Source: Prevotella sp.
GTDB taxonomy: Bacteria; Bacteroidota; Bacteroidia; Bacteroidales; Bacteroidaceae
DNA: 64,000 bases
Reading direction: 5' to 3'
Assembly (NCBI GenBank): GCA_017458225.1
Contig: JAFTFX010000022.1
Coordinates: 1 to 64,000 of the forward strand
The position numbers were made by a program, and so were the translations under genes. The notes beneath the pieces were generated by a model, which saw only the letters and a program-made list of their open reading frames with translations, had not been told where the DNA came from and made no database searches. Positions 14,608 through 46,262 of this stretch are shown here, piece by piece. Each line of letters opens with the position of its first letter. Within the stretch, counting starts at the first letter, position 1.

Positions 14608-15222
14608 TTACTTCTCGATTAAAAGAGTTGAACCATTGCATCCGGCGCAGCTGCCCTTCACAAGCAGAAGGTTGTGCTCGGGGATAACCTTTAATACTTT
14701 CAAGTTCTGCGTTGTCACGCGGTCGCCGCCCATGTGGCCACCCATGCGCATTCCCTTGAACACCTTAGCGGGGTAAGAGCAGGCACCGATAGAACCCGGC
14801 TTGCGCAGACGGTCGTCCTGACCGTGAGTGCTCTGGCCTACGCCACCGAAACCATGGCGCTTCACAACGCCCTGGAAACCCTTACCTTTCGAAGTTCCTA
14901 CAACGTCTACGAACTCTGCATCAGCGAAGAGCTCTACGGTGAGCGTGTCACCCAGGTTGTAGTCCTCGTCAAACTTGAACTCGGCCAAGTGGGCCTTCGG
15001 TGTTGTGCCGGCCTTCTTGAACACGCCCATCATGGGCTTCGTTGTGTTCTTCTCCTTTGCCTCGCCAAAACCCAGCTGAACGGCCTTGTAGCCGTCCTTC
15101 TCTACGGTCTTGACCTGGGTGACAACACAAGGACCAACTTCGATAACAGTGCACGGTACATTCTTACCGTCGGCACTGAAAACGGATGTCATTCCGATTT
15201 TTCTTCCAATCAATCCTGGCAT
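14608..15222 (-). CDS. rplC: 50S ribosomal protein L3, first gene of the operon
   Basis: The 204-residue L3 begins [19 protein letters not shown] and has [20 protein letters not shown], the region reaching the peptidyl transferase centre. In many bacteria rpsJ (S10) precedes it; here no S10 frame exists between 15223 and 15920 and a canonical promoter lies 188 bp upstream, so rplC heads the transcript. Confidence 0.98.
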
Positions 15223-15402
15223 TTCAGTTTTAAATTTAAATAATAAATAATGTGTAACTTTGTTTTGTTTCTTTTTAAGTGGCGCTCAACCCGATGCTCA
15301 TAAACACACTTAAAAAGGCGGCACTTGCTGCTTCTTGTTTGAAGGCTAAGTTGCTCTTTTCTAGCGTATTGTTAGCACGCGGGCCAGCGCAATACTTATT
15401 TT
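15223..15402 (-). promoter_or_regulatory. Long 5' leader of the ribosomal operon with hairpin and 8-codon ORF
   Basis: The transcript from the promoter at 15410-15440 has a leader of about 180 nt. On the minus strand CTTTTTAAGTG (15317-15307) and CACTTAAAAAG (15281-15271) form a perfect 11-bp stem with a 25-nt loop. A tiny [11 protein letters not shown], starts in the loop (15301) and stops in the 3' arm (15275), so its translation would open the stem. A smaller GTATTG/CAATAC pair lies near the 5' end. This looks like a leader for autoregulation or attenuation; that role is inferred. Confidence 0.6.
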
Positions 15403-15409
15403 GCGGCTG

Positions 15410-15440
15410 CAAAGGTACATATATTATTCTATATAATCAA
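15410..15440 (-). promoter_or_regulatory. Bacteroidetes-type promoter of the ribosomal operon
   Basis: On the minus strand TTG (15440-15438), 20 bp, then TACCTTTG (15417-15410) match the Bacteroidetes primary-sigma consensus TTTG-N19-21-TAnnTTTG. The start point would be close to 15402. Confidence 0.85.
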
Positions 15441-15564
15441 TACTGTGATATGGATATTTATAGTTATTTAACATACTTCATCTTTTTTAAGTTTTTCCTT
15501 TTGCCATCTGTTTTTATGGTCGAAAAAACTTTTTGCCAAATTTGCATACACTTCTGTCACTAAG

Positions 15565-15642
15565 GACATGTCTCCCTACATGTCTCCCCCTATGTCTCCC
15601 CCCATGTCTCTCCACATGTCTACCTACATGTCTAACTACATC
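15565..15642. repeat. Imperfect 11-13-bp repeat array (ATGTCTCCC type)
   Basis: Seven ATGTCT-containing units of 11-13 bp follow each other (catgtctcccta, catgtctccccc, tatgtctcccc and so on). Read on the plus strand they would encode MSPYMSPPMSPPMS-like peptide, but the promoter at 15648-15678 starts downstream of them, so expression of that frame is doubtful. Confidence 0.8.
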
Positions 15643-15647
15643 AGGTA

Positions 15648-15678
15648 TTGCAGAAGTGAAATAAAAGTTGTAACTTTG
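15648..15678 (+). promoter_or_regulatory. Promoter of the VapE-family gene
   Basis: TTG at 15648-15650, 20 bp, then TAACTTTG at 15671-15678 match the Bacteroidetes promoter pattern. The transcript would start near 15685 and carry the 22-bp array in its leader. Confidence 0.8.
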
Positions 15679-15711
15679 CAGCGCATTTCACCAAGAGAGG
15701 TGAGGAGGCTC

Positions 15712-15887
15712 GCTCTGATAAACGTCAAGTTCTGCTCTGATTCGCGTCAGATTCCGCTCTGATTCGCGTCAGATTCCGCTCTGATTTGCGTCAGATTGCG
15801 GTGAGATATGACGCAGATTGCAGTGAGATTCAATAGCGATTGCAGCGAGAAATGACGCAGATTGCAGCGAGATTTGCTATTAATTGC
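15712..15887. repeat. Eight phased 22-bp tandem units upstream of the VapE-family gene
   Basis: Units begin at 15712, 15734, 15756, 15778, 15800, 15822, 15844 and 15866, each exactly 22 bp with no spacers. The second and third are identical. The first four contain or resemble TCTGA-N6-TCAGA, a small dyad; the last four drift to GAGA...ATGACGCAGATTGC and related forms. The array ends 33 bp before the start codon. It may be a binding array (iteron- or operator-like) or a structured leader; function is unknown. Confidence 0.9.
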
Positions 15888-15920
15888 AACATATTTAACC
15901 ATAAAAACACACAAAGAGAC

Positions 15921-17189
15921 ATGAAAAAAACACAACAATCACTCCGTCAGTGGAGAAAAGAAAAAAGTATGGTGGCCCTACTGGCTGAGCAGTTCGAACA
16001 GAAAGAGCACCAGGTGGGTAGGGAAACAAAACAGTTGATGAACTATCTGGAAGAGCACTATCGCTTCCGCTACAACACCATCATGGGCTATTGCGAGTAT
16101 CACCTCGCCGGCGAGACCGTCTGGAGACCCGTCGACGAGCGAGTGGAGAACACGCTGGCCATGGAGGCGCGTATGGCAGGTGTCAACATCTGGGGCACCG
16201 ATGTAAAACGCTATCTCGGCTCACTCAGGGTGAAGGACTACCACCCCGTCAGGGCTTTCCTGGACAGCGTGCGCGGCACGTGGGACGGGCGCGACCACAT
16301 TGGTCGCTTGGCGGCCACCGTTGACTGTCGTTGTCAGCAGTGGCCACGGTGGCTGCGCACGTGGCTGCTGGGCGTGGTGGCCCAGTGGATGGGGCTGAAC
16401 CGCCAGTATGGCAACAGCGTGGTGCCGCTGCTCATCTCTGGGCAGGGCTTTGGCAAGTCCACGTTCTGCCGACAGTTGCTGCCTGCCGAGTTGCGCTGGG
16501 GCTATACCGACAGTTTGCTGCTGGGCGAGAAGAAGCAGGTGTTGCTGGCCATGAGTCAGATGCTGCTGATCAATCTGGATGAGTTCAACCAGATATCGCG
16601 CAAAGTGCAGGAGGGCTTTCTGAAGAATATGCTGCAGTTGCCGGTCGTCATGGCGCGACGGCCCTATGGCAAGCATGTAGAGGAATTGCCGCGCATGGCC
16701 TCGTTCATAGCCACGACGAACATGCGCGACGTGCTGGCCGATATTTCCGGCAACCGCCGTTTCATGGCCATAGAGCTGATGGGCCCCATTGATACGCAGG
16801 CCATGCCTGACCCGCGACAGCTCTATGCCCAGGTCTTGGATGCGCTGGAACGGGGCGAGCGCTACTGGTTCGACGATCAAGACACACAGGCGCTGATGGA
16901 ACATAACGAGCAGTATGAGCAGCAGTCGCCTGCCGAGCAGATCTTCCATGAGTGTTTCGCCCCTGCAGCCACTGAGGCCGATGGACAGTGGATGACGGCA
17001 GCCACCATTTTCAGTGAGTTGCGCAAACAGGCAGGTGCGGCGATACCCACCACCGCGCTGGCCACCTTTGGTCGGGTGCTGGCCCATGTTGATGGCTTGC
17101 AGCACAGGCGCAGCTGCCACGGCAGTGAGTATCTGGTGACAGCAGTGTATGCAAAAACGCCGAAAATAAAAATGGCGGAAAATGAATAG
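15921..17189 (+). CDS. VapE-family P-loop ATPase
   Basis: Virulence-associated E family proteins are superfamily-3-helicase-like ATPases found in phages, genomic islands and phage satellites. The ATP site is complete: Walker A SGQGFGKS (173-180), Walker B LINLDE (216-221), sensor IATTN (263-267), and NRRF (278-281) with the probable arginine finger. The start at 15921 (422 residues) is preferred over an ATG at 15840 inside the repeat array, since it follows AAAGAGAC and matches a normal MKK start. No primase domain or primase gene is adjacent. Whether it acts in replication of a mobile element is inference. Confidence 0.8.
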   Translation: MKKTQQSLRQWRKEKSMVALLAEQFEQKEHQVGRETKQLMNYLEEHYRFRYNTIMGYCEYHLAGETVWRPVDERVENTLAMEARMAGVNIWGTDVKRYLGSLRVKDYHPVRAFLDSVRGTWDGRDHIGRLAATVDCRCQQWPRWLRTWLLGVVAQWMGLNRQYGNSVVPLLISGQGFGKSTFCRQLLPAELRWGYTDSLLLGEKKQVLLAMSQMLLINLDEFNQISRKVQEGFLKNMLQLPVVMARRPYGKHVEELPRMASFIATTNMRDVLADISGNRRFMAIELMGPIDTQAMPDPRQLYAQVLDALERGERYWFDDQDTQALMEHNEQYEQQSPAEQIFHECFAPAATEADGQWMTAATIFSELRKQAGAAIPTTALATFGRVLAHVDGLQHRRSCHGSEYLVTAVYAKTPKIKMAENE

Positions 17190-17217
17190 ATTTTCCAGTA
17201 GGCGGAAAACTGCGGAC

Positions 17218-17283
17218 TTTCAAACCCATCAGGCGGCAGCATCCCAACGATGCTGCCGCTTGGAAATTTGGATTGTTGTTCTG
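17218..17283. repeat. Hairpin-bearing direct repeat, left copy
   Basis: Begins TTTCAAACCCATCAGGCGGC and ends GGATTGTTGTTC; inside, GCGGCAGCAT (17233-17242) and ATGCTGCCGC (17250-17259) form a perfect 10-bp stem. It lies between the convergent VapE-family and PIN genes and probably serves as their shared terminator. A second copy is at 17934-17999. Confidence 0.85.
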
Positions 17284-17294
17284 ATTAGATAATA

Positions 17295-17717
17295 CTACTT
17301 AGTGTTTTCAATTAGGCGCAATCCTTGACGACGATAAAAGGGAAATTTTGTGTCTGAACTAACCAATGTCATCTTGTGAGATATTGCTTGCGCAATGATG
17401 ATGTGGTCGAAAGGATCTTTGTGCTCCTGAAGCTCGTTAATTTGGAGCGATGCCAATGTGCGTATGACATTTATATCAGTATTGTCTATTTCTACTGAAG
17501 GGTCATTTAGTACAAAGGAGATCATTTCGGCCTCAGTCTTCCATATGTTTGACAATAGTTTCTTAGTTCTGAAAGCTGTTACCAATTCTTGTAGGCTTAC
17601 AATACTCAAATATTTCAGATTTTCTGGATCTTCGAGGTATGCACAAACATCTTTGGTTAATGACTGTCGGTCGTTAACCATATAAACATAAATATTAGTG
17701 TCGAGTAAGAGTCGCAT
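17295..17717 (-). CDS. PIN-domain ribonuclease, probable VapC-type toxin
   Basis: The 140-residue protein is a single PIN domain. Acidic metal ligands are in place: Asp6 in LLDTN, Glu44 in SLQEL, Asp101/Asp104 in KDPFDHIIIAQA, Asp122 in SSDTKF. PIN toxins cleave tRNA or rRNA and are held in check by a cognate antitoxin. The ATG overlaps the stop of a 34-codon upstream frame as TAATG, the usual antitoxin-toxin arrangement. The pair is flanked by copies of the hairpin repeat. Specific RNA target unknown. Confidence 0.85.
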   Translation of the reverse strand: MRLLLDTNIYVYMVNDRQSLTKDVCAYLEDPENLKYLSIVSLQELVTAFRTKKLLSNIWKTEAEMISFVLNDPSVEIDNTDINVIRTLASLQINELQEHKDPFDHIIIAQAISHKMTLVSSDTKFPFYRRQGLRLIENTK

Positions 17718-37736: not shown

Positions 37737-37742
37737 ATTTTT

Positions 37743-37841
37743 ATGGGGCTAATGAGTCTTATGAGTCTTATGGGGCTAATGAGTCTTATGAGTCTTATGG
37801 GGCTTATGGGGCTTATGGGCCTTATAGGGCCAATGGGGCGC
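37743..37841. repeat. Eleven 9-bp tandem units filling the proA-argF' spacer
   Basis: Units in exact 9-bp phase: atggggcta, atgagtctt (twice), atggggcta, atgagtctt (twice), atggggctt (twice), atgggcctt, atagggcca, atggggcgc. They run from 6 bp upstream of the argF' start to the proA stop, so nearly the whole spacer is repeat. Confidence 0.9.
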
Positions 37842-42946: not shown

Positions 42947-43012
42947 ACAAACTCGTCGACTTTGTTCAACAAACTCGTCGACTTTGTTTAACAAACTCGT
43001 CGACTTTGTAAA
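42947..43012. repeat. Three 22-bp tandem units with dyads
   Basis: Units start at 42947, 42969 and 42991, exactly 22 bp each, with core ACAAACTCGTCGACTTTGT. In each, ACAAA and TTTGT are inverted around a GTCGAC-containing centre. With the hairpin at 43022-43044, this array occupies most of the 356-bp gap (42754-43109), which has no gene. Confidence 0.9.
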
Positions 43013-46204: not shown

Positions 46205-46262
46205 TTCGGTTGTTTGTGATGGTTTTGTTCGGTTGTTTGTGATGGTTTTGTTCGGTTGTTTA
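46205..46262. repeat. 23-bp tandem repeat, 2.5 copies
   Basis: Starts at 46205 and 46228 with the core TTCGGTTGTTTGTGATGG and a partial third copy to 46262. The strand is T/G-rich. It lies upstream of the ATPase gene and downstream of the small gene at 46364. Confidence 0.85.

Follow-up and report, generated by a model that had tools for sequence, protein, structure and literature searches.

Three described kinds of repeat come nearest, by their descriptions, to the element reported here. REP sequences, BIMEs and REPINs are extragenic palindromic repeats of about 20 bp that form genome-specific families (PMC3116915, PMC3733652), and REPINs sit beside RAYT genes (PMC3116915). PINSR of Prevotella intermedia is a 188-bp intergenic repeat, probably non-coding, whose copies number 177 in one strain and 184 in another; according to the sections of the report cited here, it is confined to one Prevotella sublineage and about three quarters of its sites are conserved between the strains (PMC4755523). 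BrickBuilt of Porphyromonas gingivalis is a dispersed intergenic minisatellite MITE with a 23-nt unit, present at 19 places (PMC4596501); its description gives it one tandem unit family, a leader and a tail that are non-repetitive, and IS5-like repeats at the termini. Our search, which covered open-access literature, returned no paper describing 22-bp arrays next to VapE or BT4734 genes and no account of what these VapE homologues do.

The element analysed here lies in a window of 64,000 nucleotides from Prevotella sp. (contig JAFTFX010000022.1), whose genome assembly is incomplete (75%; 2.24 Mb in 46 contigs). Like PINSR, with which it was compared by description only, it is an intergenic, dispersed repeat of a Prevotella genome; PINSR, however, is not described as an array of 22-bp dyads in the sections cited, is said there to be without terminal inverted repeats, and is not mentioned in connection with VapE. 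With BrickBuilt, as portrayed in the cited parts of its description, it shares the dispersed intergenic arrays of short units in a Bacteroidales genome, whereas a central inversion of the units, several switching families and the association with VapE set elements of the window type apart. REP sequences and REPINs are, as far as the cited accounts go, similar in being genome-specific extragenic palindromes of about 20 bp with copies beside one kind of gene. In contrast to them, elements of the window type neighbour a VapE helicase-like ATPase and not a tyrosine transposase, their units are in tandem 22-bp phase, and the family does not track the adjacent gene.

The array sits between a putative −7 promoter box and the VapE start codon (ATG at 15921). 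The features of the locus are as follows.

15566 to 15641, no strand assigned: separate array with a 12-bp period (ACATGTCTCCCC), found by TRF, 5′ of the putative −7 box.
15671 to 15678, plus strand: putative Bacteroidetes −7 promoter box TAACTTTG, a motif match only, which would place the array in a 5′ leader.
15709 to 15893, no strand assigned: whole element of the dispersed family, an array of 22-bp units with a forward half followed by an inverted half (family matrix matches in 22-bp steps, one of 44, in the order + + + + then − − −).
15712 to 15799, plus strand: four forward 22-bp units, of which units 2 and 3 are identical and units 2 to 4 carry TCTGA-N6-TCAGA.
15800 to 15887, minus strand: four diverged 22-bp units, three of which score as the same family, inverted.
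15921 to 17189, plus strand: VapE-like ATPase with DUF3874, 422 aa (Pfam, PDB 7pds, alignments).

For all boxes mentioned here we used TAnnTTTG, which we take to be the consensus of the Bacteroidetes −7 box. The original prediction of a VapE-family ATPase 3′ of the array agrees with Pfam, which assigns a VapE-like and a DUF3874 domain to the protein. It resembles a solved VapE-like protein (PDB 7pds, E 4.5e-13) and also matches phage helicase and primase families. The family named BT4734/BF3469 by NCBI has the same pair of Pfam domains and, in one plasmid record, a DUF6078 neighbour. The window protein differs from it in two respects: Pfam finds no BT4734-like N-terminal domain in its 422 residues, although the long homologue L039 has one, and the 1.3 kb 5′ of the window VapE gene yielded no DUF6078. 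VapE homologues of the window kind occur in 135 of 200 genomes of the genus, and the named relatives belong mostly to Prevotella, Prevotellaceae and other Bacteroidales, many of them from ruminants. A PIN-domain gene (17295-17717, minus strand) lies 3′ of the window VapE gene. The first gene of the ribosomal block in the window is rplC (14608-15222), and two rpsJ motifs had no match in the window.

The 22-bp phase that had been predicted over 176 bp stands. The lag-22 self-match of positions 15690-15900 scored 75, whereas none of 500 base shuffles exceeded 12 at any lag from 12 to 45, and TRF reported two stretches of period 22 (15711-15797, 4.0 copies, 87%; 15792-15873, 3.7 copies, 74%). The units are not, however, the eight exact copies that had been claimed. 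Among the eight 22-mers counted from 15712, identity holds only between units 2 and 3, the remaining pairs match at 7-20 of 22 positions, and the second half is diverged and mostly inverted. A family matrix built from the window array and other loci of the same genome recognised units 1-4 in forward and units 5, 7 and 8 in inverted orientation; unit 6 remained below threshold. The dyad TCTGA-N6-TCAGA attributed to the units holds for units 2-4 and fails for all others, and the dyad of the array consensus is not significant (p 0.086). Further intergenic arrays of the window lie at 42947-43009 (period 22, ACAAACTCGTCGACTTTGTTCA) and 46205-46261 (period 23), neither matched by the VapE-leader family matrix, and an array of TTATGGGGC-like units with a 27/9-bp period (37741-37839) fills a 104-bp gap between two genes. 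Arrays with a 12-bp period also precede a few other VapE loci; 5′ of DUF6078 they occur in 2 of 54 loci, without a pattern.

Used as a query, the window array matched its own genome at many further places. When at most three mismatches were allowed, a 19-mer core gave 43 matches, three of them in the window array, versus a single one for a reversed control. Units of the family were present in 37 of the 40 other regions fetched around these core matches, which together with the window makes 38 elements. In these elements, like-oriented units follow each other in steps of 22 bp in 138 cases and of 44 bp in the other 5, and orientation switches exactly once per element, always from plus to minus, at 25 bp (33 elements) or 47 bp (5 elements). 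An element spans 4-8 units, six in 22 of the 38. In 37 elements the two ends have a common terminal unit (consensus GCTGCAATTAGCGTCA) unlike the inner units, the whole element being an inverted array. None of 37 elements overlaps an ORF of at least 100 aa by more than 60 bp, and the flanking genes are co-directional in 16 cases, convergent in 12 and divergent in 8. Elsewhere, the matrix of this family matched twice in 400 kb of genome G045 and nowhere in 210 kb of three others including E. coli. The window array represents a single copy of an extragenic repeat element that is dispersed in this genome, and it is not a private VapE iteron. That its units might occur widely without VapE genes had been named as the finding that would speak against an origin, and none of the 37 other places is the second VapE gene of the genome. 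The 7.2-kb contig that carries this gene (contig 5) contains no unit of the family, but it starts inside the gene, whose 5′ side is therefore unseen.

A MITE or an element of the REPIN type, whose movement depends on either an IS transposase or a RAYT, would share several of these properties, namely dispersal, intergenic position, palindromic and genome-specific sequence and terminal units in common; dispersed extragenic palindromic repeats are what we found in the window family and in the families of other genomes alike. In genome G121, units of a dense family (core AAAAGCTAAG, 22-bp steps, fixed offsets where orientation changes) flank one RAYT gene on both sides at about 0.5-2 kb; near a second RAYT gene there is a 22-bp array with a different sequence. 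This proximity gets little weight because the family is so dense there. A RAYT driver was looked for in four genomes and rejected on the evidence of two of them. G024 has no match to Y1 transposases, and the own genome, incomplete as it is, has a single weak match with no family unit within 10.5 kb, so that the families of these two genomes do not adjoin a RAYT gene. Nor is there a signal of target-site duplication: no clear direct repeats at consistent offsets were seen in 37 elements, whose ends are only approximately placed. Movement by such a transposase is thus highly improbable in our view.

Arrays of this geometry are associated with VapE genes well beyond the window. We compared 40 loci of the same genus and the window, which provide 40 VapE 5′ regions, L037 having no upstream neighbour in its locus; these loci, like 20 + 20 further ones, were hand-picked from hit lists by homology and contig, without regard to arrays. 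With an array defined by a period of 21-23 or 44, and with gaps below 80 bp scored as misses (including L040 despite its array), arrays of the 22-bp type preceded VapE in 24/40 loci but occurred in only 6/152 other intergenic regions (Fisher p 9e-15), and 3′ of VapE in 4/37. In other genera the counts were 8/19 5′ of VapE versus 5/51 elsewhere (p 0.004). Among the best 80 of 221 named relatives, 79 could be counted, one having less than 200 bp upstream: an array lay within 400 bp 5′ of VapE in 53/79 and 3′ in 5/79, a stretch 1.5 kb beyond contained one in 1/71, and 26/79 loci remained below the array threshold. As the genomes overlap in part, the tests on the same-genus and the named set are not independent. 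For PF05272 genes of any kind in complete genomes, the excess was not significant (2/19 versus 3/84 other regions). The expectation that Prevotella VapE genes would each be preceded by a 22-bp array holds for many of the nearest relatives, and not for the PF05272 family at large.

Of 254 intergenic regions in stretches sampled from six genomes belonging to the same family, 28 contained arrays of the 22-bp type with many different sequences, whereas 50 kb of E. coli had none in 14 intergenic regions. Set against the VapE counts, this background indicates that such arrays occur generally in these genomes and are enriched at one kind of gene. Arrays accompany VapE relatives much more frequently than they occupy other intergenic gaps, a link that may have several causes. 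In our reading, 22-bp arrays are retained near VapE, probably as a control element.

The sequences of VapE-leader arrays differ from genome to genome. Four further VapE-leader arrays were searched genome-wide and all belonged to dispersed families. Such families occupy 12 places in G024 and 13 in G055; the first family of G035 has 13 places in its genome, two of which are VapE leaders, and a second family common to G166 and G035 has 9 places in each. Of the four genomes in which each of these families was sought, two or three lacked it, and the G055 family has a single match in G080, at a VapE gene. Each of the genomes searched has array sequence families of its own or has them in common with one close relative. 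A search of about 12-15% of the G045 genome with three of its VapE arrays gave no match. In G024, a second family lies beside four highly similar VapE regions, and a related array lies at a fifth VapE gene. These four regions of one complete genome (L068, L069, L192 and L193) resemble each other closely over several kb, with VapE proteins 97-99% identical and a common array family, which suggests a recent duplication of a larger element. In L202 (2514-2896) and L204 (2477-2860), 22-bp dyad arrays are located between two short genes; these look like genes for mobilisation or partition proteins, as we presume, and the arrays are possibly centromere-like sites.

Replacement of one family by another was seen at fixed sites. 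Between the related species G035 and G166, eight syntenic pairs had arrays in both genomes, four of the same family and four switched; as the regions were chosen for having array matches, the pairs are uninformative on array-free sites. In the pair L310/L338, the left flank matches, as judged by eye, as far as the array boundary. The VapE proteins of L040 and L042 are 89% identical and have arrays of different families, most of DUF6078 being missing on the L040 side, while two G035 VapE proteins of only 60% identity have a common array family. VapE thus does not dictate the array sequence, and the array sequence in G035 and G166, as judged from these comparisons, follows genome and site history rather than the VapE protein. 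The sequence families turn over while the 22-bp geometry stays. Near 6584-6700 of L317 (G035), a second type of 22-bp unit, GTCGAAGGTGCCGGCTCCGTGG-like, directly abuts an array of the A family by eye, so that arrays of different families can be neighbours.

Family replacement at one fixed site would also be compatible with a neutral minisatellite, generated by slippage or by template switching on quasi-palindromes and without function, for which the VapE gaps would merely be permissive. The arrays of many sequences in the sampled intergenic regions leave room for such a general mutational cause. A purely mutational origin is nevertheless rather unlikely, given that all 38 elements keep a 22/44-bp phase and change orientation in one direction only, and given the distinct terminal unit at both ends and the strong enrichment 5′ but not 3′ of VapE.

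The same comparisons bear on the iteron-type origin that had initially been proposed for this array. VapE, or DUF6078, would bind the adjacent array and open or prime the DNA, and the locus would represent a domesticated replicon. The 22-bp spacing and the dyads suit this idea, as do the kinship of the AAA+ helicase-like protein with helicases and primases of phages and the many VapE genes that adjoin arrays. A private iteron is rejected, however, on account of dispersal and family switching. The repeats are not private to the putative initiator gene, since 37 of 40 other regions contain family members and four of the eight window units have diverged, most of these being inverted, and in the G035/G166 comparison the site does not follow the protein. 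The BT4734-like N-terminal domain, which the cited part of one survey groups with AEP primases (PMC5862659), is the one absent from the window protein. Moreover, the VapE protein of L369 as a query matched 58 plasmid and 396 phage records, none with at least 60% identity, and seven loci from viral contigs reached at best 42% identity to the window-led alignment. An origin of the iteron type has accordingly become very unlikely.

A different active role for the locus would be that of a REPtron-like driver, in which VapE, with or without DUF6078, reads the shape, and not the sequence, of the 22-bp-phased dyads and copies or converts arrays throughout the chromosome. If so, the dispersed family would be a product of the locus, syntenic sites would switch family by array conversion, and the system would spread repeats by means of a primase-helicase in place of a transposase. 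VapE as the only driver was rejected on the evidence of G121, which has its dense family while its sole VapE-domain gene (L204) is without an array directly upstream. We see only a slim chance for a driver of this kind. Autoregulation by the VapE product via the array is possible, judging from the position of the array.

The usual place of the array at named VapE loci is between a DUF6078 gene and VapE. DUF6078, whose predicted model has a pLDDT of 92.8 and which has four invariant cysteines, is present in 68 of the 80 named loci, the best of 221 relatives. Where DUF6078 lay no more than 1.3 kb 5′, arrays were found in 54/68 of these loci, compared with 3/11 without it (p 0.001; 79 of the 80 loci counted). 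The corresponding difference in the same-genus set (18/22 versus 11/17) was not significant, and in other genera arrays occurred without DUF6078 in 12/20 loci. One Parabacteroides record has the order DUF6078, array and BT4734 gene, and two Bacteroides plasmid records have an HU gene in place of DUF6078 and no array. In the 54 of 68 DUF6078 loci with clean coordinates, a TAnnTTTG box lay within 150 bp before DUF6078 in 47/54, compared with 21/280 control stretches drawn regardless of coding. The gap between DUF6078 and VapE contained an array in 41/50 cases and a −7 box in 2/50. From this distribution of motifs, DUF6078, array and VapE look like one transcription unit. The order of array and promoter varies: in the window the array lies 3′ of the box, and in L057 and L063 it lies, by eye, apparently 5′ of a promoter-like box.

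Arrays in leaders or between cistrons might act as transcribed RNA elements whose hairpins control how the VapE message is translated or how stable it is. The boxes 5′ of the window array and of DUF6078, together with their rarity in the gap, are in line with this idea, and so is folding: as single strands, the 38 own-genome elements have a mean z of −7.3. The window array itself folds no better than its shuffles (z −1.4), and two other elements have values above zero. As the arms of an element pair not significantly better with each other than with the arms of other elements (p 0.07), the strong fold may follow simply from the inverted array, and arm pairing specific to each element was rejected. 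Selection for RNA hairpins was likewise rejected, there being no bias for G.U over A.C in the dyads (31 versus 37; 42 versus 41 in another count) and no excess of compensatory changes inside VapE arrays (12 versus 10.1 in shuffles). The absence of both signals is more readily explained by DNA sites that a dimeric protein binds than by RNA hairpins under selection. Furthermore, the elements are found in all gene orientations, and an Rfam search of 15200-17300 gave no match. Control by such RNA hairpins is, in sum, quite improbable.

In a hand-thinned set of 75 of the 80 named loci, from which duplicates or short ones had been removed and of which 52 have arrays, a dyad was significant (p ≤ 0.05) in 31/52 VapE arrays, with a span of 15 or 17 bp in 27/40. 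An earlier count gave 18/38 for arrays upstream of VapE, 7/16 for other arrays of the same loci and the window, 1/7 for arrays downstream of VapE and 1/17 for sampled stretches of G045. Because 7/16 other arrays of those loci have dyads, dyads are not special to VapE.

Family dispersal, the fixed phase and architecture, the enrichment at VapE genes and family switching at syntenic sites are established here. To account for them, we tentatively favour, with confidence just short of even, a dispersed REP-like DNA element whose dyads are bound by a dimeric protein and which is kept as a control element of VapE. Such an element would comprise about 4-8 units in a 22-bp phase, equal to two helical turns, with the left half forward and the right half inverted. 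Each unit would be a dyad that is bound as DNA by a dimeric sequence-specific protein, and the bound units would all face one side of the helix. The specificity of the binding protein and the repeat families would turn over together. Copies would spread or be replaced, in a manner on which we can only conjecture, and the array ahead of VapE would probably serve as a control element for the VapE cistron.

The results have a bearing on how such loci are interpreted. An iteron origin should not be deduced merely from a tandem array next to a replication-like ATPase; the genome-wide distribution of the array should be checked first. A companion array of constant 22-bp geometry and freely changing sequence provides a handle on the role of VapE, and the arrays provide a handle on how a repeat family is exchanged at fixed sites between related species.
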